A stretch of 21,475 nucleotides of DNA from a virus, in the IMG/VR virus record IMGVR_UViG_3300025010_000821, positions 1 through 21,475 of that record, one strand, 5' to 3'. The notes under the pieces were generated by a model. It searched no databases, was not told where the DNA came from, and worked only from the letters and a program-made list of their open reading frames with translations. A program made the position numbers and the translations under genes. How positions within the stretch are numbered: the stretch's first letter is position 1; every line of letters begins with the position of its first letter. Below, in pieces: positions 8,883 to 21,265 of the stretch.

Positions 8883-11756
8883 TTACAGCCCCGCAGATTT
8901 AGCATTCGAAGCGCTTATTTTATCGCCGTTGTAATTAATCGTCTGTTTATTCACGGTTGAAACTACTTTCACGTTGCCTTCTCCGGTTCCCGATCCACCC
9001 GATTTCGTCACTCCGGATGTACCGGAAATACTGGAGGAACCACTTGACGAACTACCCGACGAAGACCCGATTTTGAAAAGTTCTGATACCACGGTTTTTG
9101 CCTTCTCATAGATGGTGTCCAGTGATTTCCCTACACTCCCGAGACTCGATAACGTAGTTGAAAACGAGAACCCGCCCATTTTTGATAATGACGTGTTCGC
9201 GTCATCTGTTTTTTTCTTGTCAGTATCTATGGCAATTCCAGCCGTCCCTAAATTACCAAACAGATTACTAAAAGGAGAATAATTTGTAGTGTTAAGAGTC
9301 GTGTTTAGTGTCTCTACTTTTTTGGTATCATCGTCGGTTAGTTCTCCAACTGTTGAAACATTTGCTTGAATTGTAGAAAACACCAGCCCGTCCGTGTTTA
9401 TGAAAGTTGAATTCATAATATCCGTGCTGGACGTAGTGTCCTCAACTTCTCCTCTGGTATCAGATACTTCGCCTTGCAGTGCTCCAAAATCAACAACGTT
9501 TGCATTTGCGAGAGCGTCCTCCCATGTAATTGTAGCAGTTTGAGAGTCTGTTATATTGGAAGTTGTCTCTGTAATTTCACCCTGCAAATTATCCAGTTTT
9601 GTATTGTCCAGGACTACGACATCATTTCTCATGTCATTGATTATTCTATCAAGTGTGCCACCTTCGACTTGGGCATCTGTAATACCATCGGTAAAAATAG
9701 TTATACCGCCGTTAGGGGTCTCAAATGTGAGCATTCCCATGTCTTTGAGAGGGGTTAATGCTCCATCTGCTGAGACTTTTACAAGTTGTCCGTTTTTATC
9801 GAGGATAATTAACTCATCGTTTACAGTTCGAATTCCTCTAGCTAGTTCGTCCATATTCGTACCGGACATAAAACTGATGCCGGCAGAAGTTTTTGCATTG
9901 ATGTCTTGCATGAATTCAGAGACTGCTTTGTCGTACGCTTCCGTGGCTTCCTGTGTGGAACTTACAGCTTCATCGTTTGCAGAAACAACCTCCGAAGCCA
10001 TATCCCGTGCATATGTGCCCCATTTATAGTATGCATCCCCGGCAACGTCGCTTGCGGCGTCTACTACAGATCCAGTTTCTTCAGTCGTCTCTTTAATTTC
10101 GTCTGTTCCGTTTCTGTATTCTTCCGCCGTGATGTGTATATCTTCAACAAACCCACCTACCCACTCTGTAAACTTTGAAAAGTAAGGAGCTAATCCGCCT
10201 ATTGCTTCGCCTAACCCCCCGAGAAATCCCCCGCTTAACATTGACGAGAGATCATCAAGCATCCCACCGATGTAATCTATTGCCCCGCTTACAGTTCTTT
10301 TCAGTCCCTCCCAGACGATTGTAGCCATATCGGAAAATAGACTCCATGCTTTTGTTACGAGTCCGGTTTTCGCTTCTATGAGATAGAGAGCAGCTACGAC
10401 AGCAGCTACAGGTAAAACAATGCTTGAAAGTGCGCCCACTACTCCGGCGGTTGTAATTCCTAAAAATCCCATAGCAAGAGTGACACCCTCAACAATCATA
10501 GGAAGAGCAGCCATTCCTAAAAGCACGGGACCAATAGCAAGAGCAAGGCCGCCTAAAATTACTAATGCAGTTTGCCCCACGGGATTCATTTGAGCAAAAG
10601 CTGAAGCAGCAGCCGTTATAAAATCTACAAATGGATTGAAAATTACTGCAAGTCTGTTCCCAATTGTGATCGAAAATGATTCAAGAGCAGATTCCATCAT
10701 GCGAACTGCCCCACCAAATCCTTCATCCATTTTTTCGGCCGCACTTTCCGCGTAGCCCTCGACGTTCTGAAGTTCTATCGAGTAACTACCTAATTTGTCG
10801 ATTCCCTGATCGAGGAGTGCAAGCAGTCCAGGCCCTGCCCTGAGTCCAAACACTTTCATCATGTCGGCCGAGGACATCCCAGATTCTTTGAGGGTCCTGA
10901 AAATCTCATCTAATCCGTGAACTTTGGGGTCAAGTTGGTCAAGTGTCAAACCATACTGTGAGAAAACATCCATACTCGCTTTTGTGGGGGAAACTAACTC
11001 TGTAAGGATTCCACGCAGGGTCGTGCCTGCCATCGAAGCCTGGATACCAGCATTTCCAAGCATACCTACAGCGGCAGCCGTCATTTCCATTGATAGCCCG
11101 AAAGAATGAGCTACAGGGCCTGCGTAGGTCATCGCCTCCCCGACCTGCTGAACGTTTGTATTTGTACTGTGAGCAACTTTCGCGAGAACATCAGCCGCGT
11201 GTCCTGCTTCGTCAGTTCTCATGCCAAAGATTGTCATTACATTGGACATGATATCGGCAGCCGAACCAAGATCGAGAACACCAGCGCGAGCAAGCGCGAG
11301 AGTAGCAGGGAGAGCACCGATAATTTCATCGGTTTTAAATCCCGCCATTCCTAAATAGGTCATGGCGTCCGCAGCTTCGGATGCCTTAAATGATGTAGTT
11401 TCGCCCATCTCGCGAGCGAGAGCCGAGAGTGTCTGGAACTGAGAACCGGTTGCACCTGTAACCGCTCCAACCTGTCTCATGGAATCATCAAAAGAGGAGA
11501 ACGTTTTTACGGCAGTAGACCCAAACGCAACTAAAGGAGCAGTCAAACCGAGAGAAAGAGCCGCACCTAGGTATTTCACCTCATTGGGCATCTGTCTTAA
11601 TTTCCCGATTGTCCCGTCAAAAGATGTTGCCATACTACCTGCAACACCTTTCATCTTGTTTTCAAGGGCTACAAGTCCCGTTGAGATCGACGTGACCTCC
11701 GAACCCATCTTATTATTTATTCCGACATCGACATACAAGGAACCAAGTAAGCCCAT
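8883..11756 (-). CDS. Tail tape measure protein (TP901-type)
   Basis: This 957-residue protein sets tail length and is ejected before the DNA in siphoviruses. Residues 70-345 match the conserved TP901-type core (AVKTFSSFDDSMRQVGAVTG, AMTYLGMAGF, GTTLRGILTEL, FGLRAGPGLLALL). Residues 395-460 are strongly hydrophobic, as in tape measures that later form a membrane channel. Residues 719-898 contain five repeats of exactly 36 residues, then a Ser/Gly-rich linker (900-925) and a C-terminal tail. At about 0.15 nm per residue, the rule known from other siphoviruses, the tail would be roughly 140 nm. The ATG has GGTGTG upstream. It follows the tail assembly chaperone, the classic order. Confidence 0.9.
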   Translation of the reverse strand: MGLLGSLYVDVGINNKMGSEVTSISTGLVALENKMKGVAGSMATSFDGTIGKLRQMPNEVKYLGAALSLGLTAPLVAFGSTAVKTFSSFDDSMRQVGAVTGATGSQFQTLSALAREMGETTSFKASEAADAMTYLGMAGFKTDEIIGALPATLALARAGVLDLGSAADIMSNVMTIFGMRTDEAGHAADVLAKVAHSTNTNVQQVGEAMTYAGPVAHSFGLSMEMTAAAVGMLGNAGIQASMAGTTLRGILTELVSPTKASMDVFSQYGLTLDQLDPKVHGLDEIFRTLKESGMSSADMMKVFGLRAGPGLLALLDQGIDKLGSYSIELQNVEGYAESAAEKMDEGFGGAVRMMESALESFSITIGNRLAVIFNPFVDFITAAASAFAQMNPVGQTALVILGGLALAIGPVLLGMAALPMIVEGVTLAMGFLGITTAGVVGALSSIVLPVAAVVAALYLIEAKTGLVTKAWSLFSDMATIVWEGLKRTVSGAIDYIGGMLDDLSSMLSGGFLGGLGEAIGGLAPYFSKFTEWVGGFVEDIHITAEEYRNGTDEIKETTEETGSVVDAASDVAGDAYYKWGTYARDMASEVVSANDEAVSSTQEATEAYDKAVSEFMQDINAKTSAGISFMSGTNMDELARGIRTVNDELIILDKNGQLVKVSADGALTPLKDMGMLTFETPNGGITIFTDGITDAQVEGGTLDRIINDMRNDVVVLDNTKLDNLQGEITETTSNITDSQTATITWEDALANANVVDFGALQGEVSDTRGEVEDTTSSTDIMNSTFINTDGLVFSTIQANVSTVGELTDDDTKKVETLNTTLNTTNYSPFSNLFGNLGTAGIAIDTDKKKTDDANTSLSKMGGFSFSTTLSSLGSVGKSLDTIYEKAKTVVSELFKIGSSSGSSSSGSSSISGTSGVTKSGGSGTGEGNVKVVSTVNKQTINYNGDKISASNAKSAGL
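9063..9602 (-). repeat. Five 36-residue tandem repeats in the tape measure protein
   Basis: Anchor residues recur at exactly 36-residue intervals: L721, F757, F793, F829 and F865, each opening a short motif: LDNLQGEIT, FGALQGEVS, FSTIQANVS, FSNLFGNLG and FSTTLSSLG. The rest of each unit is Thr/Ser/Asp/Lys-rich and poorly conserved. The exact period without insertions implies a structural repeat, such as a segmented helical or coiled unit, rather than chance. Confidence 0.65.
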
Positions 11757-11813
11757 TTTTCACACCTATACGTTTTTACCTATTTTTTGCCCTACAAGGC
11801 TACCCTCTAAAGC

Positions 11814-12227
11814 TCATCTTCTAACAGTTCGAGTTTTCTTCTTTTTAGGGCATTTGTTCACGTAAGCATTCCCAGCAGCAGACCATAGCGCAGACTGTTC
11901 ATCTTTGGAAATTTCCTTCTTTTTGGGTTTTTCAGGAAGCAATTCTTCAGGAAGAAAATCTTTCCATTCGTACAATTTCTCGTCTTTTTTGTGAGACCAT
12001 GACGCGTTTAGAATTGCACATTTGAGATCTGCATGTTTTTGAATGTTCCACTTGTATTCCTGCCAACCTTCCTCAATGAGAATCTCAATTTCTCCGATTG
12101 ACATTTTTAGAGTTTGAGCAGGAGGGATTTTACAGAACCTGAAGACTAACTTCTGAATTTTAGTTATCCATTTATAGACGTCTTCGTCTTCTTCTTCGGA
12201 GGACTGGACTTCCTGAATTCCCCCGTA
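11814..12227 (-). CDS. Tail assembly chaperone T-domain, read by -1 frameshift
   Basis: The -1 frame relative to the upstream chaperone gene is open from 12227 (after a TGA at 12230-12228) to a TGA at 11814-11816. It encodes an acidic linker (SSEEEDEDVYKW) and then a helical domain (KIQKLVFRFCKIPPAQTLKM, EIEILIEEGWQEYKWNIQ) followed by a basic tail ending in RTVRR. Tail chaperone T-domains of lambda-type phages have the same layout (helix, a P-P pair, a helical EIxxxxEE region) and are made only as a frameshift fusion to G. The in-frame ATG at 12104 has no ribosome binding site and would remove the first helix. The region 12105-12163, empty in a simple annotation, is therefore coding. The fusion would be about 286 residues. 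Confidence 0.7.
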   Translation of the reverse strand, partial: YGGIQEVQSSEEEDEDVYKWITKIQKLVFRFCKIPPAQTLKMSIGEIEILIEEGWQEYKWNIQKHADLKCAILNASWSHKKDEKLYEWKDFLPEELLPEKPKKKEISKDEQSALWSAAGNAYVNKCPKKKKTRTVRR

Positions 12228-12673
12228 TCAGCGACCTTGAGTTCATCCGCCTGTGAATTAACGACTCCTTTTTTAAGGGCTACCAGGTTTTCCATCTGTT
12301 TGATTTCTAACTCTTTTAATTCCTTGATAATCTCCCTCTTCTTTTCAAGGGTATCCATATCTGTAAGCTGAGAATTAGCAAAGGCATCCGCTACTACGTT
12401 TTCAAGGTCGTCTATGCTGCCAGAATATCCCTTTACGATGACCCACACTTCATCTATAGTAATTCCGGGCTTATCCCACAGCAAACCAACTCTGATCATC
12501 TCAACGTATTCTTCAATTGAGATACCTTCCCCGCCTGCCTTTTCTCGTTCAGCGATTACTTCAAAAAATCGCTTCTTTGATCGAGTACCAACAACGTTAA
12601 AGAGTTTTGGTAGTGACTCGATAGGATAAAAAAGAGAGTTCCCCGGAGAGAACTCTGTCTTGATTCCGGCCAT
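12164..12673 (-). CDS. Tail assembly chaperone (gpG-like)
   Basis: The 169-residue protein lies between tail tube and tape measure genes, where siphoviruses encode the chaperone that coats the tape measure protein during tail assembly. Its body is alpha-helical (RSKKRFFEVIAEREKAGGEG, EEYVEMIRVGLLWDKPGITI, DDLENVVADAFANSQLTD), like other chaperone G-domains with a recurring LLW and a VxxAF helix near the end. A charged helix (EKKREIIKELKELEIKQMEN) and a Lys-rich C-terminus follow. The ATG overlaps the tail tube stop in a TAATG. A -1 shift near codon 151 would join it to the T-domain downstream. Confidence 0.75.
   Translation of the reverse strand: MAGIKTEFSPGNSLFYPIESLPKLFNVVGTRSKKRFFEVIAEREKAGGEGISIEEYVEMIRVGLLWDKPGITIDEVWVIVKGYSGSIDDLENVVADAFANSQLTDMDTLEKKREIIKELKELEIKQMENLVALKKGVVNSQADELKVADTGEFRKSSPPKKKTKTSING
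12218..12227 (-). other. Candidate -1 ribosomal frameshift site
   Basis: In the short window where both frames are open (12227-12167), the most slippery sequence is a run of five G, read in frame 0 as ACG GGG GAA (GGGGG at 12224-12220). A tRNA-Gly on GGG can re-pair perfectly on GGG after slipping back one base. The heptamer G GGG GAA is not a perfect X XXY YYZ, since the A-site pairing would be imperfect. A run of purine-rich GAAGAAGAAG follows. Which of these positions is used is inference. Confidence 0.4.
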
Positions 12674-13395
12674 TATGCAGCCGCCTGGATCATAATAATT
12701 TTAACAAAACGAGTTGCTTTTTCGTCTTCCTCGACTTGAAGGAGTACTTCTTTTATTACTCCGGCCGTCAAAGAAATCGCCGAAGACGCTTCTCCGGTTG
12801 TCATTGCCGTCCAGGTTGACCCGTTATTCAAAGAATACGCAATGTAATCAGCACTTGCAGCAACTACAGTAAGCGTAGCTGAGGTTATCCCGTTTGCCTC
12901 GTTGATCACGAGCACATTACCGGTTCCTAGAACAGCAGGAGTCTGAACTACTCCAGCCCCGCTTGCAGTAATTGAAGTTATCCCTGCGTAAGTTGTTGCT
13001 CTGTTCGCTACTCCTGAAACATCGAGAGTTGCAGTCCAGACATAAGTATTTTCCTCTGAGCCAGGCTCAAATTTCGTAACATATGCTTCATAGGAAAATA
13101 TTTCACCTGCGTCTGGAATTGATATAGAAAAGGTATGTAGTTTCCTGTCACCAAATGCAGTCCACATGGCAATCTGTCCGGCATCCGACGGAATCATGTT
13201 TCCGGAGATGTCAACGGTTCCGGGGTCATACATGTTAAGACCTTTCTGCATGACAGTTCCGCTATCAAGCGTAGAGGTGTTTTTGCTCCCTGTACTCCCT
13301 TTCGGGAATGGGACCGTTCCGGGGTCTATCCCGTGTATGACTGTCCCGTCTATTGAGACAGTGCTTCCGAATGTGTCAATGTGTTCAAATGACAT
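12673..13395 (-). CDS. Major tail tube protein
   Basis: The 240-residue protein has an N-terminal tube domain (residues 1-135). After VSIDGTVIHGIDPG and a loop (PKGSTGSKNTSTL) come GTVDISGNM and AGQIAMWTAFGDRKLHTFSI, then SYEAYVTKFEPGSEENT and the final strand TATLDVSGV, the pattern of lambda gpV-like tube proteins. Residues 138-236 form a separate beta-sandwich (SATLTVVAASADYIAYSLNN, SLTAGVIKEVLLQVEEDEKA), an Ig-like domain probably displayed on the tail surface, as on gpV. It lies between tail terminator and chaperone. GGAG sits 9 nt before the ATG inside the end of the preceding gene. Confidence 0.8.
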   Translation of the reverse strand: MSFEHIDTFGSTVSIDGTVIHGIDPGTVPFPKGSTGSKNTSTLDSGTVMQKGLNMYDPGTVDISGNMIPSDAGQIAMWTAFGDRKLHTFSISIPDAGEIFSYEAYVTKFEPGSEENTYVWTATLDVSGVANRATTYAGITSITASGAGVVQTPAVLGTGNVLVINEANGITSATLTVVAASADYIAYSLNNGSTWTAMTTGEASSAISLTAGVIKEVLLQVEEDEKATRFVKIIMIQAAA

Positions 13396-13400
13396 TGTTT

Positions 13401-13784
13401 TTAGCTCCGTTCTATTTCTAATGAAAAATTAATTGAATAAATTGTACCTTCTGCTTTTGATTTTGAAACAAAGAAAGGAGGTGCTTGCGCTTCGATTCTT
13501 TTGAATCTAGTCCCGCCAATTCGTTTGTTTACCGTCAAATTGAGAAGATTATAAATTTCGTTTGCCTTGCTTTCTGCGGTCCCGCCTGCTTGATTTCTCA
13601 CAAGTATCTGGAGATACGGTTTTTCTAATTTCATATCACCCGATGCTGAATATTTTCCGAGAATTCCGGGGGGCGGGTTTACCGCTATATCATTAGGCAC
13701 GCCTGACGCAAAGCCGTGTTTATGGATATCATTAGAAATATTGTTATTTTTGAGATATGTTACAATATCATCTATGAATGTCAT
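13401..13784 (-). CDS. Tail terminator / minor tail protein
   Basis: This 127-residue alpha/beta protein begins with a helix (TFIDDIVTYLKNNNI), then strands and a loop around GKYSASGDMKLEKPYLQILV, a helix containing ESKANEIYNLLN, and C-terminal strands (YSINFSLEIE). The layout matches tail terminators of the gpU/minor-capsid-from-phage type that cap the tube at the head end. The ATG at 13784 is chosen over one at 13799: GGAG lies 7 nt before it and it overlaps the previous stop as ATGA. Position between gp10-like and tube genes supports the call. Confidence 0.7.
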   Translation of the reverse strand: MTFIDDIVTYLKNNNISNDIHKHGFASGVPNDIAVNPPPGILGKYSASGDMKLEKPYLQILVRNQAGGTAESKANEIYNLLNLTVNKRIGGTRFKRIEAQAPPFFVSKSKAEGTIYSINFSLEIERS

Positions 13785-14158
13785 AACAAAGCTCCGCATC
13801 TTGATTGTAAATCAGTCATTAAACGATAAGACATGAGATTGAAAGGCGTAGAAAGAAATTTATACTGCCCGATTGGGTGATTTCTCGGGATTTCATGAAC
13901 ATAGATTGCATAATCAAGCCCTTCACCGTAAGAGATTCTTACAAAGAATTCAGTTAGTGAGTTTTTTATGACTTCATCTTTTGCGGATTTTTTAAGGTTT
14001 CCTTTGTCAACCGGGCAGTATTGATTTTGAGATGTCGTTTTTACGTCTCTTGCAAAATCTTTGATTGTATTTCGGGCGGTCAGGTTCACGGCTGCTGTTT
14101 TTGCTATGAGATTTGCAACGCATACAGCCGCACCTGTCCCTCTCGTAGAGGATTTCAT
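13781..14158 (-). CDS. HK97 gp10-like head-tail protein
   Basis: The 125-residue protein has a long N-terminal helix (AAVNLTARNTIKDFARDVKT), then CPVDKGNLKKSAK and VRISYGEGLDYAIYVHE, the signature of the HK97 gp10 family (a P-V-D-x-G-x-L-x-x-S motif followed by Y-A-x-Y-V-H-E). The C-terminal helix contains FNLMSYRLMTDLQSR. This family acts in head-tail joining or tail completion. It overlaps both neighbours by 4 nt (ATGA), showing tight translational coupling, and is preceded by GAGGGCTGA as ribosome binding site. Confidence 0.8.
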   Translation of the reverse strand: MKSSTRGTGAAVCVANLIAKTAAVNLTARNTIKDFARDVKTTSQNQYCPVDKGNLKKSAKDEVIKNSLTEFFVRISYGEGLDYAIYVHEIPRNHPIGQYKFLSTPFNLMSYRLMTDLQSRCGALL

Positions 14159-14475
14159 AAATCAGCCCTCGCTTCCGGTTTTCCAAGAATAACCCTAACA
14201 TATTCTTCTTTTTTTCGCGTAGGTCTCTCAATCCTCTGTATCGAGGATATAGCCGGATTAGTCCCATCTGCAAGCACTATTTTATCCTCAGCCGAGATTG
14301 AAGTTCCAGGAGGCAGTGCAAGCCATGCGGAAACTATTGTGTTATCTCCTTCCTGTGAGACTTCCTTAAGTTCATTATATTTGCACTTTTGAGACCGTGA
14401 AGTCCCGTACGAAACCTCATGTGATGCGTTTTTCGAGGAAAAAGGATAAACTGTAACTGTATCAGGAAATTTCAT
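14155..14475 (-). CDS. Head-tail adaptor / head closure protein
   Basis: The 106-residue beta-rich protein contains the typical ending of head closure proteins: TSISAEDKIVLADGTNPAIS followed by a strand with VRVILG. These proteins (SPP1 gp16 / HK97 gp7 type) form the stopper ring between portal-connector and tail. It lies between the connector and gp10-like genes and overlaps both: TAATG at its start, ATGA at its end. A GGGTGTG is its ribosome binding site. Confidence 0.7.
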   Translation of the reverse strand: MKFPDTVTVYPFSSKNASHEVSYGTSRSQKCKYNELKEVSQEGDNTIVSAWLALPPGTSISAEDKIVLADGTNPAISSIQRIERPTRKKEEYVRVILGKPEARADL

Positions 14476-14912
14476 TACACACCCTCGTACTCGTCTGAAT
14501 ATCCGTGCATGATCTCAGGAACATAAGAATCAGTTCTCCGTACTCCGTCTATATCAGCTACCGCAGATAAATCAGATATTTCAGTATGTTCAGAGTCATA
14601 TTCTGCGAGAACCGCGTAAACTCTATCAAGCCAGGATGAAGATGTCCGAACCTGAGCTTTCCAAGACGAATCTTTCACAGACTCAGAGATGATTGTGCCC
14701 CTCCCGTGTCTATTCTCAAGAATATCACACACAATAAATGCGGTCAATTCTTCATATTCTCCTGTTGTAAAACTCCGAGAGCCTATGATTCTATCTAAAC
14801 GTGCCTCCGCGTTTGTTTTTAAAGTCGCTAACTGAGCATCCGTGATATCATCGGTTGCCAATGCACCTACTCTGTATTCTGAGTATAGCTCGATAATATC
14901 CGCGAGTGTCAT
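14475..14912 (-). CDS. Head-tail connector (gp6-like)
   Basis: The 145-residue, mostly helical protein has the layout of gp6/gp15-type connectors: a helix (LADIIELYSEYRVGAL), then DAQLATLKTNAEARLDRIIG and YEELTAFIVCDILENRHGRG, followed by VKDSSWKAQVRTSSSWLDRV, where the connector families carry a conserved Ser-rich stretch. The C-terminal 40 residues are acidic. The ATG at 14912 is preferred over GTG at 14918: GGTGT precedes it by about 5 nt and it starts 2 nt after the upstream stop. Confidence 0.7.
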   Translation of the reverse strand: MTLADIIELYSEYRVGALATDDITDAQLATLKTNAEARLDRIIGSRSFTTGEYEELTAFIVCDILENRHGRGTIISESVKDSSWKAQVRTSSSWLDRVYAVLAEYDSEHTEISDLSAVADIDGVRRTDSYVPEIMHGYSDEYEGV

Positions 14913-14914
14913 GT

Positions 14915-16993
14915 TCACACCATGTTTACAGTAATCTGAATAATGTCAGTATTAGCCGCGTCTCTCGCTGGTGCTGTATAGGTTAGTACCCCGGCATCAA
15001 TCGAAATCGGGATATCATTATATTTGGAATCTTCACAGTCATAAATTAGATAATTTGTAGTGAGATCTTTGATTCTTAATACCTGTTCGACTGTTACTGT
15101 ATTGTATGGGCTCGATAGTGTGATTGTTTTTGCGCTTGCGTTGAGAGTATAATAATCTGGATGAATAACCTGTTCCGCGTTTCCACCTCCTGTTATGGCT
15201 GCTATGTCAGTTTCAAGAGAAGCCAGGGTCGCGGTCCCACTCCCTGTAATGGTAGCAAGTTCAGAAGTTTTTGCTATCGGTGTTGCTGTATCAAAATCTG
15301 CTAGCGCGCTTGCTGCTTGTGCTTTTATTGCTGCTAGAGGGTCTGCTGTCAGGAGATCAGTAGTCGTTTTTATCAGATCGACTTTTCCACCTACTGAGGA
15401 TAATCCGGCTGTCGTTGCTAGTGCTGCTGCTGATATTGCTGTTCCGACTGCGGTTTCAATGTCAGACGCTGAAAGATCGTTCAAAGCCGAGATATCAGTA
15501 GTTAGAGCTCCGCCCGTTGGGACTGCGGTAAGTGTCCTCGATTCTGCTGACCATATCTGAGCTACCGAAGGAGCACTCCCGCCAGTTGCCGAAACAACAT
15601 TGAGATGTAATTCACCTTCGCCGATCAGAGCATCTTCCGCGTCATAACATGACACTATCACGTTGATGTTTTGCCCGAACGAAGTTTCAAATGTCGATGG
15701 GACGGTGACCCAAAAACCGGAAATTGTATTATCAAATGATGATATTGCCCAAGCAAGTGGGTTTCCTGCGCTCGGTTCTCCGTCGATATATGCATTTATT
15801 TCTGAACTGTCGAACCCGTTCAGATATCCTGATCCATCAGATGCGACAATTCTTACTATATGCTTCTGTGTGCTGCCTGCTACATGATCCATTTCGTGAA
15901 TCCTCACTATTGTTACTGTATTTCCTGAACCGCCTACCGTGACATCAAAACTATATTCATCGCTCCCTTCTGCGTTTGTGGCTGTCAAAACTACCGTATA
16001 CGTTCCTGCCTCTGCATATGTATGAGTTGGATTTGCTGTATCTCCGTGTGTTGTTTCGTCTCCGAAATCCCAATCCCATGATGTAGGGGTATTCGTAGAA
16101 GTGTCGGTAAAATTAACTGTGAATATTTGTACTGATGTGAAACCTGCGACCGGAGCTGAACTCTGAGAAACATCCTGAATTGTACCCCATGTAATTGTGG
16201 GATCAGAACCGGTGAATTTTCGGATGACGATGTAATCAAGTTCTCCGACGGAACCGAATATTGAACTAATATTTACCGTTAGCGCGGTATCTGGAATATT
16301 TGTCGAATGAGTTGTTGCAGCCCCGTCTATAGTCATTACTGCATTCGTGGTATACGATAGTGTATATCTATGATAATCGTTATCTACTGCGTGAGTTGAC
16401 AGCGTAGATGTTGCGGAGCCGTCGTCTGCTTGTATATATGTATATCCTCGATTCGTAGGATTAGCATTCGCGGAGGTAACATTATTACCTGTCATTGCGC
16501 CAAATCCAATCGAGAAATATCCCCAATCTCCGGCAGGTGTGCTTTTCGAGCGAGCAATTATTTGGTGCCCTCTGCCAAATGGAGTGGTTGATCCTATATA
16601 CCCCCCTTCTCCGAATACCGCAACGCCAGACGAAACAGAAACACTATATACACTCGTCCACTTTGCATCAAGTGTTTCGCCCGAGAACACGTCTCCGAAT
16701 TCTAATGCGTTTAGAGTACTTTCAGATGTTGCACCGGATTTGCTCCAATGCATGAACAAATCAGTTGACGTTGAAGCGAGTTTGACGAGGACAGTACATG
16801 ACGTTGATTCTATAGAATCTGGAATAACCCAGTATGATAATTGATTGTCTGCGTCTGAAAATCTCAGGTCTGCGAAATTGGTATCCATTCCGGTTTGATA
16901 CTCAACATTGACCAGAATTTGATAACCGATACCGGGATTAGCAGAAAGTGAAAAATCGTATATTTTTGCAAAGTCTTCATATTGATTAGTCAA
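14915..16993 (-). CDS. Appendage protein: DUF2341, lectin-like, PKD and fibre domains
   Basis: This 692-residue protein lacks a signal peptide. Residues 12-90 resemble DUF2341 (GYQILVNVEYQTGMD, TDLFMHWSKSG); 98-262 look like a concanavalin/LamG-like beta-sandwich (FSGETLDAKW, ELDYIVIRKF); 280-354 are a clear PKD domain (FTDTSTNTPTSWDWDFGD, HTYAEAGTYTVVLTATNAEG); 358-470 another beta-sandwich. Residues 485-605 are Ala/Ser/Thr-rich helical repeats suggestive of a trimeric fibre stalk, and 610-692 a compact beta domain. Such domains bind glycans and proteins on methanosarcinal surfaces, so a head- or neck-attached adhesin fits. It overlaps the NosD/PKD gene upstream by 8 nt and is followed by the connector gene. 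The exact virion location is inferred. Confidence 0.65.
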   Translation of the reverse strand: MTNQYEDFAKIYDFSLSANPGIGYQILVNVEYQTGMDTNFADLRFSDADNQLSYWVIPDSIESTSCTVLVKLASTSTDLFMHWSKSGATSESTLNALEFGDVFSGETLDAKWTSVYSVSVSSGVAVFGEGGYIGSTTPFGRGHQIIARSKSTPAGDWGYFSIGFGAMTGNNVTSANANPTNRGYTYIQADDGSATSTLSTHAVDNDYHRYTLSYTTNAVMTIDGAATTHSTNIPDTALTVNISSIFGSVGELDYIVIRKFTGSDPTITWGTIQDVSQSSAPVAGFTSVQIFTVNFTDTSTNTPTSWDWDFGDETTHGDTANPTHTYAEAGTYTVVLTATNAEGSDEYSFDVTVGGSGNTVTIVRIHEMDHVAGSTQKHIVRIVASDGSGYLNGFDSSEINAYIDGEPSAGNPLAWAISSFDNTISGFWVTVPSTFETSFGQNINVIVSCYDAEDALIGEGELHLNVVSATGGSAPSVAQIWSAESRTLTAVPTGGALTTDISALNDLSASDIETAVGTAISAAALATTAGLSSVGGKVDLIKTTTDLLTADPLAAIKAQAASALADFDTATPIAKTSELATITGSGTATLASLETDIAAITGGGNAEQVIHPDYYTLNASAKTITLSSPYNTVTVEQVLRIKDLTTNYLIYDCEDSKYNDIPISIDAGVLTYTAPARDAANTDIIQITVNMV

Positions 16994-19016
16994 GGAGTCT
17001 CACCCCTGCGAAATATTGAAACAGCCAACTAAACATATTATATATTTTCACTGTCAGCCCGGTGGGTTTTGTAACGTGGATGTAAGCGGTTTTTACCTCC
17101 GAATCAGTTCCGTCTTCGTTGGAAACGGTGAGATTTACGGTATAATTTCCAGCAGTTTTATAGTTATATTTTATAACATTTTGAGTAGTTTTGTCTACTA
17201 CTCCGTTCCCGTCGAGATCCCAAGCCCATGACGTTGGATTCCCCGCGCTTGTGTCTGTGAAACTGACGGATAACGGATAAGTTCCACTTGTTACACTTGC
17301 TGAAAAATTGGCAATTGGGAAATATTCTTCTTCCCCGGCAACATCGAGAACCAAGACGGTTTCGGGACTGCTCAAGCTCTGGATGTTCTCGGAATACCAT
17401 GTATTGTCCGGGTTTATGATTTCAGAATCTGTTTGACCTGATTTTGTAGCGGTGACTGTAGTAATATAAGATGTAGACGTCGAACCAATCAATTTAAAAT
17501 CGGGAACGGAAAGCCAGTTAGAACGATTCCCTGCATTATATAATTTCCCGCTTTCATCGGTGATAAATTCAGACTGTATTGCACCATTGCCGTTTTTTGC
17601 CGTAGTATTGATTGTGATTACCGCGTTTGAAACCGGTATTCCTGTGAGATTTTCAACTATGATATTAGGATAATAATAGACTGTAATGTCTTGACCTGAT
17701 GCGGCAGCAATTGAGGTATACTCATTATTGATTACCGAGATATTTGTACCAAGTTCGGACCAGATATCATATTGAAAATTATTTGAAAACGATGAATCGA
17801 TTAGAGTGTGATTATCACAATAGAAATAACCATCTCCATATTCTGATATTTTTGAGAATACGGCTCCTAATTGTGGGGCACCTGACTGAGTACAGTTTAT
17901 AATAGTCTCGTTTCTTGAATTGAGACAGTATATCCCATTGCCTGAAAACGTGGAATTTCTAACGATGGAATTATGCGAACCTTCGTCGAAATACATCCCA
18001 TAGCTGCCTACATTTGAGACGTGTACATTTTCATAAACGTTGCCGCCTATGATTTTGCCGGTTTCGTACCTACCAACCTCAAAGAAACCATGATTGTATC
18101 CGTTTGATAGTGTAATATTCCGAAATGTAGAATTATTTAACTCGACTTCAAAAACGTTGTGCCCTGAGCCTATTACTGTCATATTTTCGCAGGTGATATT
18201 TTCACATCCGTTATCATACCCTCCGATATTAACAGCCGACCACGATGCATTTAGGACATACACGTCTCGCAAAATATTATTAGATCCTACAAAATATATC
18301 GCATAGGCGTTATCGTATCCGAGAGGACCGTTTGCAGGATCACTCACATTAATGCAGGAAATATTCGAAAAAATGCTATCATCTACGAGGGTTGAGTATA
18401 TCCCATTACCGTTTTGAGGACTGTTATCTCTTATAGTTATATTGTTCACAGTTAGATTATCGCCATAAAACGAGAGACCGACTCTACATTTTCTAACAGT
18501 GATATTATAATAATCCTGATGCGAAACACCATGCTCAACAGAATATCCGCAATAGATTTCTCGAAAACTTTCCATCTCTACATCGTGAATTGGAGTATAT
18601 ATCACCAGTTGAGCGGTATTGAGAAACCCTTTTTGTGTGTCGTTTGTTCTGTCCCATCCTACTATTTTGGTATTATCCAGAATAGGATAACCCTCTATAG
18701 CCCAGTCACGGTAATTGCTCATCAACCGAACTTCAGTAGCAGTAGAACTATTAATATAAAATGGGACATTCTCAGGTATTGTCAATTTTGAACAGCGCCA
18801 AACACCCGGAGAAACTTCATTCAGTATGTTATTCTGTGTTTCGGATTCTCCGTATGTTCCTACCAGATCAGCATAGAGGGATGGCAGATTGTTAACCGCC
18901 GTGGGCTGCGTAATATAAATTGATCGGTCATCCACCCCTCCGTATGTTACGCCAGCCTGTGCACAGCCAACACTCGCAAACAAAATTAAAAACAATAAAA
19001 CTAACTTCTTAATCAT
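16986..19016 (-). CDS. Secreted NosD-like beta-helix and PKD surface protein
   Basis: The 676-residue protein starts with a signal peptide (MIKKLVLLFLILFASVGCAQ; cleavage near residue 21, or a lipoprotein-type cysteine at C18). Residues 75-430 form a right-handed beta-helix of NosD/CASH type (NNITIRDNSP, NITCENMTVIGSG); 445-555 are Ig-like; 565-648 are a PKD domain (SFTDTSAGNPTSWAWDLDG); the C-terminus (KIYNMFSWLFQYFAGVRLL) is hydrophobic. About twenty N-x-S/T sequons occur, many in the beta-helix, as in archaeal surface glycoproteins. A GAGGG precedes the ATG. It lies inside the virion operon, overlapping the next gene by 8 nt. It may be shown on the infected cell surface rather than packed in the virion. 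Confidence 0.7.
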   Translation of the reverse strand: MIKKLVLLFLILFASVGCAQAGVTYGGVDDRSIYITQPTAVNNLPSLYADLVGTYGESETQNNILNEVSPGVWRCSKLTIPENVPFYINSSTATEVRLMSNYRDWAIEGYPILDNTKIVGWDRTNDTQKGFLNTAQLVIYTPIHDVEMESFREIYCGYSVEHGVSHQDYYNITVRKCRVGLSFYGDNLTVNNITIRDNSPQNGNGIYSTLVDDSIFSNISCINVSDPANGPLGYDNAYAIYFVGSNNILRDVYVLNASWSAVNIGGYDNGCENITCENMTVIGSGHNVFEVELNNSTFRNITLSNGYNHGFFEVGRYETGKIIGGNVYENVHVSNVGSYGMYFDEGSHNSIVRNSTFSGNGIYCLNSRNETIINCTQSGAPQLGAVFSKISEYGDGYFYCDNHTLIDSSFSNNFQYDIWSELGTNISVINNEYTSIAAASGQDITVYYYPNIIVENLTGIPVSNAVITINTTAKNGNGAIQSEFITDESGKLYNAGNRSNWLSVPDFKLIGSTSTSYITTVTATKSGQTDSEIINPDNTWYSENIQSLSSPETVLVLDVAGEEEYFPIANFSASVTSGTYPLSVSFTDTSAGNPTSWAWDLDGNGVVDKTTQNVIKYNYKTAGNYTVNLTVSNEDGTDSEVKTAYIHVTKPTGLTVKIYNMFSWLFQYFAGVRLLD

Positions 19017-19019
19017 TTT

Positions 19020-19412
19020 TCAGCCCTCTGTAATGGATACTTCGCCCTCGAAATCAATACCAAGAGTAGTATTGAGCGTTGTAATCAGTGATCTCAGGAT
19101 AGCCTTATCTGCTGCATCATTCGCCCTCTTCTGTGCCTGAACTTTCGCGATTTCCAAAGCTTGATCTTTCAAGGAGGTTATCAGGGCTGCTCGGTCTGCG
19201 GTTGTCACAGGGATATTATATGGGATCTGGACAGGAACGGAAAACTCAGGATACAGAGGCAACGGTAATCCATTTTGACCGAGAACATCAGTATAAATTA
19301 TGTTTCCTGCGCTGTCTCGCATTGGATTGCCTCGGTCTTCCCATGTGAGAACAATATTTCTTCCAGAATCGGGAGCGTTAGCTCGAAGTCTTCTTAGTTT
19401 TATTGTTGCCAT
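19020..19412 (-). CDS. Hypothetical 130-aa late protein
   Basis: The N-terminal half is basic and loop-rich (IKLRRLRANAPDSGRNIVL), with a Pro-rich segment (LPLPLYPEFSVPVQIPYNIP), and residues 72-117 are a long helix (AALITSLKDQALEIAKVQAQ and onward). The ATG overlaps the SGNH gene stop as TAATG with GGTGAT upstream, so both are probably made in a fixed ratio. It could be an adaptor or chaperone for the neighbouring appendage proteins, a common arrangement in phages, but no family is recognised. Confidence 0.55.
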   Translation of the reverse strand: MATIKLRRLRANAPDSGRNIVLTWEDRGNPMRDSAGNIIYTDVLGQNGLPLPLYPEFSVPVQIPYNIPVTTADRAALITSLKDQALEIAKVQAQKRANDAADKAILRSLITTLNTTLGIDFEGEVSITEG

Positions 19413-21265
19413 TAGATCACCATACCGTAGTTTTTCAAAAATTGCGTAATACTTCCAGAAACGGATGCCTCTAAGCAGTCCGGGATAAGATCAGAATCAG
19501 AATCGAGTGATAAATCTGCGAATGTAAGTTGCCCGTGATAAATGGAGCCTGAACCGGGATACAATTTCAATTCGTGGATAGTTCCGGCTTCATTTCTTTT
19601 GAAAGATAGAGAAGTCGGTCTATTTGTATGCAGATAAAAATCAATTAGTGATGTTGCGGGATCATAGAGAGCAAGCCAGGGTTTTGTTATGTTTTGTAGA
19701 CCGTTTACAAAATTTAAACTGTCATCAAATATATATGATACTGTGTTGCTCCGGGCTGATAACGATTTATAAAGATCTGTCCCTAATTTTGTGTATCCGG
19801 CTACAGAATAGTGCAGCCCGTCTCCACAGTCATACGCTTCCTGTATTGACCACTTCCCGGTTTCTGGATTTTGAACGCCAACTGACGTTCTATTCTCAAA
19901 AATAAAAAAATCGAGTGAATTTTGAAGGTCATGAATAGCTGCATTAACTGTATTTCTCCCGTTTGCACGTAATTCAGAGTCGACTGTGGCAGGCGGGACT
20001 TCAAACAAAATAGGAATTATATTATTATTATTGCATAATGTAATCATTTCTGAAATGTCTTCGAGTATAGATAATTGAGTCGCTGTATCTGCAATGTTGT
20101 CGCCTTCGTTTAATCCCGTTTCGATGACTGCGATTTTAGGATTTAGCGCGATTACATCAGCCTCAAAACGTGCTCTGATCGCGGCACAGTTTTGACCTCC
20201 GATGCCCATATTTTGATATGTAATGTTGTTATCATTTGCGAAATGGTATGGAGTCTGAGATACTAGATTAGTTGTATTAGTGGCCTCGATGAAAGTATAA
20301 TGTCCGGGATGACCCGCATTTGTGGAATCCCCGATGAAAACAACGTCAGGGGAATCCATATATAGAATAATTGGATACTGTTTTCCAGCCACCGTACCAG
20401 TGGCTGAGGTATCCCAATCGAATGATTCCCCTAATCCAGTATTTGAAGAGGGTTTGAGATATTTTAGCGAGCCCCCTGTAGCAACGACTGATAGAACAGA
20501 ACCGTTGTCCATAAACACTCCGTAAAAATCCCCCTCTTGTGCGGAGATCGGAACTGATAAATCAATTGTATTGACACCGATAGATAATAGAGATGCCAAA
20601 TTTTCAGATACAGATATAACATCATACGTGCTGCCGTTTTTGCGCCAGATCTTGACCACAAAAACTGTCATATTTGTTATCCCCCCTATTGGCACGACTA
20701 CCCGTTTGATTAGTCCACTCTGCCTGATTCTGGATGTATGCCCAGCGTTGAAAAATTCTAGATTAGGTCCGTTGTTATTTGGTGATGTGTACGGGACAGA
20801 TGTGCTATAGGGAGCTACGGAGGACAACGATGTAGTAGTATCTTTCTGACCAAATATTCCTCCGAAATCATTTAGAATTTTATTTTTTGATAAAGTATAT
20901 TCATTTGAATGGGGTAGTATAGCTGCGTTTCTAGTTGGAAGAACGAGAACTTTCCCCTCTGTTTCGAGGGTGATAACTCCCTCGGTTGCTTCCAGAAGTT
21001 CAAGAGAATCAGGAACCGGTGTTCTCAAAATAATTTGTAATTTATCCAAATCCTCGGAATAACAGTCCCTAGAATATGTAATACATCCATTAGAAAAAGT
21101 AATACCAGGAATAGAACGCTTAACAGAATAAATTATAGAGTTCCGGGTGAGGTTTCGTATAGACTCAACGTTTTCAACTCCTAATCCATAATACGAATAA
21201 TCCAGCCAGATTTTTTTCTGTGCTGCATTATGAGAATAGAAGCCACCCGGAACAATTACACGCAT
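19412..21265 (-). CDS. Appendage protein with SGNH-hydrolase (esterase) domain
   Basis: This 617-residue protein has a complete SGNH/GDSL active site in residues 300-505: block I VVFIGDSTNAG (Ser314), block II NMGIGGQNCA (Gly357), block III ETGLNEGDN (G384-x-N386, with Glu instead of the usual Asp after Asn) and block V DGLHYSVAG (Asp482, His485). Such enzymes on tail fibres remove acetyl or other ester groups from host polysaccharides; methanochondroitin of Methanosarcina would be a plausible substrate, which is inference. Residues 1-120 are an N-terminal attachment region, 140-300 a beta-sandwich. Near the C-terminus DSDSDLIPD (588-596) resembles a calcium-binding TSP3-type loop. There is no signal peptide, consistent with a virion protein. 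GGTGGT precedes the ATG, which overlaps the previous stop by 1 nt. Confidence 0.7.
   Translation of the reverse strand: MRVIVPGGFYSHNAAQKKIWLDYSYYGLGVENVESIRNLTRNSIIYSVKRSIPGITFSNGCITYSRDCYSEDLDKLQIILRTPVPDSLELLEATEGVITLETEGKVLVLPTRNAAILPHSNEYTLSKNKILNDFGGIFGQKDTTTSLSSVAPYSTSVPYTSPNNNGPNLEFFNAGHTSRIRQSGLIKRVVVPIGGITNMTVFVVKIWRKNGSTYDVISVSENLASLLSIGVNTIDLSVPISAQEGDFYGVFMDNGSVLSVVATGGSLKYLKPSSNTGLGESFDWDTSATGTVAGKQYPIILYMDSPDVVFIGDSTNAGHPGHYTFIEATNTTNLVSQTPYHFANDNNITYQNMGIGGQNCAAIRARFEADVIALNPKIAVIETGLNEGDNIADTATQLSILEDISEMITLCNNNNIIPILFEVPPATVDSELRANGRNTVNAAIHDLQNSLDFFIFENRTSVGVQNPETGKWSIQEAYDCGDGLHYSVAGYTKLGTDLYKSLSARSNTVSYIFDDSLNFVNGLQNITKPWLALYDPATSLIDFYLHTNRPTSLSFKRNEAGTIHELKLYPGSGSIYHGQLTFADLSLDSDSDLIPDCLEASVSGSITQFLKNYGMVI

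Follow-up and report, generated by a model that had tools for sequence, protein, structure and literature searches.

In phage lambda, the tail assembly chaperones G and GT come from a two-frame gene flanked by those for the major tail protein and the tape measure; shortly before the first frame ends, a -1 shift gives rise to an extended minor product carrying a T-type domain (PMC5009743). Many other tailed viruses rely on such a frameshift. G-T frameshifts are also reported for the archaeal viruses HVTV-1 and HCTV-1, -2 and -5 in PMC5009743 and PMC8211752, and PMC3483164 credits that of psiM2 to Xu et al. 2004. The locus described here is present in a virus record of 21,475 bases (IMGVR_UViG_3300025010_000821; this whole stretch is referred to as the window), where two open reading frames (ORFs), A and B, follow each other on the minus strand. 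As in lambda, they occupy two frames flanked by the major tail protein gene and the tape measure gene, with a putative -1 shift late in the first frame and a predicted extended minor product with a T-type domain. Very probably, A and B encode the tail assembly chaperones of a long-tailed virus, a pair of the lambda G/GT type that arises when ribosomes shift to frame -1. The anatomy of the locus, the gene order, the conservation of the slip site and that of B above any start are read in the sequence itself; the ribosomal nature of the slippage, its efficiency and the protein functions are inferred. The parts of the locus are as follows.

12673-12164, minus strand: ORF A, putative G-like tail assembly chaperone, predicted product of unshifted translation, 169 amino acids (aa)
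12230-12228, minus strand: TGA, stop of the -1 frame directly upstream of the slip site
12224-12218, minus strand: putative slip heptamer G_GGG_GAA (zero frame ACG GGG GAA), including the G5 run 12224-12220
12227-11814, minus strand: -1 frame extension (B, putative T-like domain), 134 residues after the shift
12163-12105, minus strand: apparent intergenic gap of 59 nucleotides (nt), coding in the -1 frame (KIQKLVFRFCKIPPAQTLK)
12104-12102, minus strand: ATG of the 96-aa ORF, probably an internal Met codon
12104-11814, minus strand: ORF B, 96 aa, frame -1 relative to A

The majority of ribosomes would read ORF A to its TAA and produce the 169-aa G-like protein, whereas a minority would slip back by one base on the heptamer G_GGG_GAA. 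In this step, the tRNA-Gly on GGG could re-pair with the overlapping GGG and the tRNA-Glu with GGA via a G:U pair; alternatively, only the P-site tRNA may slip. The expected junction is VADTG(E/G)IQEVQSSEEEDEDVYK, that is, VADTGEIQEVQSSEEEDEDVYK for a two-tRNA slip and VADTGGIQEVQSSEEEDEDVYK if the P-site tRNA slips alone. After the shift, translation would proceed across the supposed gap in frame -1, giving a fusion of ~286 aa (152 + 134). By analogy with lambda (PMC5009743), the tape measure protein may be bound by the A part and the major tail protein recruited by the T-like B part, and neither part would remain in the virion. The -1 frame, which reads YGGIQEVQSSEEEDEDVYKWITKIQKLVFRFCKIPPAQTLKMSIGE..., is indeed open between the TAC at 12227 and the stop at 11814, as the sequence-only reading had stated, although that reading had counted one nucleotide too few (58) in the gap. 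A shift upstream of the TGA at 12230-12228 would terminate, and the relatives L002 and L011 (see below) likewise have the -1 frame closed shortly before the slip site, by TGA and TAA, respectively. However, the openness of the frame on its own is weak evidence, because a stretch of 41 stop-free codons before the ATG at 12104 has a probability of ~0.08 by chance (first-order Markov model), and because ATGA-type overlaps commonly place the following gene of this genome in frame -1 anyway. The claim therefore rests on conservation in relatives.

A search with the tape measure protein revealed the contig L002 (50% identity in the best segment). The window connector protein (14918-14475) is 96% identical in L002, and a search with this protein gave nine loci, with eight further viral contigs (L007-L014). 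The major tail protein search led to L031; viral contigs searched with single queries (A, B, the major tail protein) yielded no relative. L003, which shares tape measure similarity only, was rejected as an unrelated phage. Two of these contigs (L008 and L010) end short of the A/B region, and the junction could be read in eight (L002, L007, L009, L011, L012, L013, L014 and L031). The source metagenomes of the relatives are IMG 3300025000, 3300025010 and 3300024999. L031 and L011 originate from different metagenomes and are 100% identical over 1600 nt, and no difference separates L007, a contig that breaks off within B, from L014 over the stretches compared, so the readable contigs provide six distinct junction sequences. 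In all of them, a -1 frame overlaps A and runs on into a B homologue, and none has a -1 stop between the slip site and B; the interrupting stops in relatives that would have counted against the sequence-only reading are thus absent. L007, L009, L012, L013 and L014 form what we call the sister group.

The -1 product of the window matches that of L002 with a BLASTP expectation value (E) of 5e-19, and the alignment already begins upstream of the ATG at 12104. Considered alone and read in the -1 frame, the gap scores 43 against L002 and 36 against L011, whereas neither of the other two frames exceeds 17, and the -1 score was matched in none of 2000 shuffles; the earlier claim that the apparent gap is coding is thus borne out. 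The ATG itself is not conserved (a Phe codon stands at the aligned place in L002), and the first start codon of B is found at differing positions among the relatives. As the gap is conserved in the -1 frame only, and the ATG is not, conserved protein sequence reaches upstream of any start that B could use for itself. Furthermore, no Shine-Dalgarno-like sequence is present in the 20 nt upstream of the ATG (ctcctgctcaaactctaaaa). Judged from these comparisons, the ATG is probably an internal Met codon and not a start.

The frame under selection can be followed in the sister group, whose five members are similar enough to be compared codon by codon, by the ratio of nonsynonymous to synonymous differences (pN/pS), of which the direction outweighs the exact values, as these are simple sums over non-independent pairs in short stretches: in the 75 nt before the slip site, pN/pS is 0.37 in frame 0 vs 0.88 in frame -1, in the 24-nt overlap after it 1.59 in frame 0 vs 0.00 in frame -1, and in the gap 0.17 in frame -1. 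In this group, purifying selection acts on frame 0 up to the heptamer and on frame -1 beyond it. B could still be imagined as a separate gene, translated from the ATG at 12104 by independent initiation or by reinitiation after the stop of A, with a gap that is open by chance; this ATG does open a 96-aa ORF, and the chance probability given above is not very small. Nevertheless, the conservation of the region above the ATG as protein in the -1 frame only, the lack of a conserved start or of a Shine-Dalgarno-like sequence, and the low pN/pS in the homologous gap make a separate gene highly unlikely.

The slip site was proposed in the sequence-only reading to lie at the G5 run, and its heptamer is kept in relatives: the window has GAT ACG GGG GAA, L002 GAT CCG GGG GAA and L011 GAT AAG GGG GAA, with the same in-frame heptamer in L031. 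The overlap of A with the -1 frame is 63 nt in the window, 42 nt in L002 and 21 nt in L011. The genes examined from the window, L002 and L011 comprise 10,726 codons, among which G_GGG_GAA stands in frame at only three places, all of them these junctions. All five sister contigs, in contrast, have a canonical C_CCT_TTA at the junction. The same sites bear on two further explanations of the split. As homopolymers are error-prone and one base gained in the G run would join the frames, the locus could be a single uninterrupted gene that only appears split through a sequencing or assembly indel in the run. However, the same split is found at the same place in six distinct related junction sequences, in L011 and L031 it is found identically in two metagenomes, and the sister viruses are split at C_CCT_TTA, which contains no long homopolymer; we regard the probability of such an error as negligible. 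Alternatively, transcriptional slippage on the homopolymer could add one G in part of the mRNAs, which is the same frame change and would lead to the same fusion without any ribosomal slippage. Five Gs are a short run for polymerase slippage, and the C_CCT_TTA of the relatives suits tRNA re-pairing rather than slippage of the polymerase. The likelihood of this route appears very slight, and ribosomal frameshifting remains the preferred explanation.

The sister group has an A family of 117 aa, with which the A protein of L002 aligns; both match phrog_2115, so that the two slip sites occur with the same A family. A Shine-Dalgarno-like stretch is located upstream of the slip site in L011, L002, L009, L012 and L013. 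It is conceivable, if rather doubtful at present, that within one archaeal virus group with homologous A proteins the slip site has switched between purine G_GGG_GAA and pyrimidine C_CCT_TTA, with or without an upstream Shine-Dalgarno-like element. If true, this switch would represent a natural test of how an archaeal ribosome adjusts the ratio of G to GT to the tRNAs of its host.

The assignment of A and B as tail assembly chaperones is supported by the gene order together with family matches of relatives and B homologues found elsewhere. A and B are flanked by the following genes, and this order is kept in the relatives covering the region.

13395-12673, minus strand: major tail (tube) protein gene (phrog_158, E 1.4e-8; Pfam Phage_tail_2, E 2.7e-4, slightly under the cutoff of that family)
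11756-8883, minus strand: tape measure protein gene (PhageMin_Tail, E 1.5e-48; phrog_1533, E 1.6e-105)

The window A protein is 34% identical to the 147-aa A of L011, which matches phrog_2115 (annotated as tail protein) with E 4.5e-4 and phrog_183 (tail chaperone protein) with E 0.013; among the A relatives, the best match to phrog_2115 reaches E 1.1e-11, and those to phrog_183 are weak. Relatives of B match Phage_tail_T (the lambda T family, E 8e-4) and Phage_TAC_6 (E 0.003). The earlier proposal of a G/GT-type chaperone made by a -1 shift therefore finds good support in sequence, gene order and relatives.

Several observations weigh against this interpretation. G_GGG_GAA of the window, L002 and L011 does not conform to the strict X_XXY_YYZ pattern with Y = A or U, whereas C_CCT_TTA does. 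Downstream RNA structure is not prominent in the window (z -0.4 to -1.2), and the upstream Shine-Dalgarno-like stretch is absent there. The window A and B proteins have no significant match to a known family, and the Pfam matches of the B relatives fall below the curated cutoffs. The fold predictions are of low confidence, with a mean predicted local distance difference test (pLDDT) score of 62 for A and 72 for B, and no significant match was found for the predicted folds of A and B in the PDB or for that of B in a viral library. As to the RNA structure, none is shared downstream of the slip site among the relatives; the only marked hairpin, that of L002 (z -5.3), was rejected, since the slip site forms part of it and the other sequences do not share it.

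The markers for an archaeal host come from the sister contig L014 (52 kb), whose connector is 95% identical, and not from the window. Among 50,697 phage records, the matches of the L014 MCM helicase are 16 archaeal virus records only, and its terminase is closest to that of a virus assigned to Methanomicrobiales. Scanning bacterial and archaeal genome contigs for the connector revealed no provirus, and the terminase scan of such contigs gave only Clostridia-type relatives; therefore, the genome-contig scans do not fix the host. Going by the genes of L014, an archaeal host is likely for the group, and the window virus itself probably has one as well.

The tail module is mosaic. In a comparison of the window (8883-14918) with L002, the connector is 96% identical and the C-terminus of the tape measure protein is nearly identical, and the major tail protein, A and the N-terminus of the tape measure protein are strongly divergent. 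The region 14915-21265, which adjoins the head-tail connector genes, encodes large PKD, beta-helix and GDSL-lipase proteins that vary greatly between the relatives; one large protein there has a signal-peptide-like start (MIKKLVLLFLILFASVGCAQAG).

Among the described systems, the archaeal tailed viruses HVTV-1, HCTV-1/-2/-5 and psiM2 possess the same arrangement and the same -1 direction, and psiM2 is a virus of a methanogen. In psiM2 (L034, NC_001902), a -1 extension with A_AAA_AAG is present at 13712-13945 after ORF19, unannotated in the RefSeq record. This AAAAAAG site served as a positive control, being found blind by the same inspection before its credit (PMC3483164) was known; the psiM2 extension has no detectable sequence similarity to B. 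Two other viruses contain open shifted frames. In MFTV1 (L035, MT711370), an unannotated open +1 frame (..VCKFLRIPPSEAIKLNRMDYNIILGFAIREL..) at 11731-11916 follows the gene 11406-11771 and possibly represents a +1 shifted chaperone extension; its resemblance to B, noticed by eye, was rejected, since BLASTP gave no similarity. In vir524 (L029, BK063669), an open +1/-2 frame (GVGLFQLSQSLGKFPHEFSECTQEEIAYMTAAWNTMQANSQKRRR) at ~22290-22420 after the gene 21823-22332 is a candidate for a shifted T-like extension.

B homologues are also found in bacterial viruses: in the Syntrophomonadaceae phage PV036453 (E 6e-6) and in the Streptococcus phages Javan355, Javan253 and IPP64 (E 0.006-0.09), where, like in the window, an A-like gene is followed in the -1 frame by the B homologue and the two are flanked by the genes for the major tail protein and the tape measure. 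In PV036453, the stop of A is closely preceded by C_CCA_AAC; in the Streptococcus phages no canonical heptamer is evident. Compared with lambda T, the similarity is weak and seen in relatives of the window proteins only, and the roles in product ratio and binding are drawn by analogy. The window slip site, G_GGG_GAA, also differs from that of lambda, G_GGA_AAG.

The same heptamer is nevertheless familiar from bacterial viruses. In SEA-PHAGES genomes, the roughly one thousand 'fivetwo' sites all read GGGGGAA, and for these sites G:U pairing was suggested to seat the second tRNA on GGA (PRFect, PMC10885494), and Corynebacterium phage phi16 was assigned the same site (PMC5506516). The heptamer, the gene type and the shift direction are identical to those of the window; these are, however, bacterial viruses with annotated or predicted sites, whereas the window host is probably an archaeon. 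As GGGGGAA is commonly annotated as a slip site in actinobacteriophages and G-T shifts of archaeal viruses were reported earlier, the noncanonical heptamer does not imply a different shift mechanism of the archaeal ribosome, contrary to the earlier suggestion. The locus turns an apparent gap into coding sequence, points to the proteins that are likely to serve as tail chaperones in an uncharacterised, probably archaeal virus group, and adds probable cases to a small set of archaeal -1 frameshifts. In this group, the lambda-type frameshift would be retained even though the slip site differs between its members.
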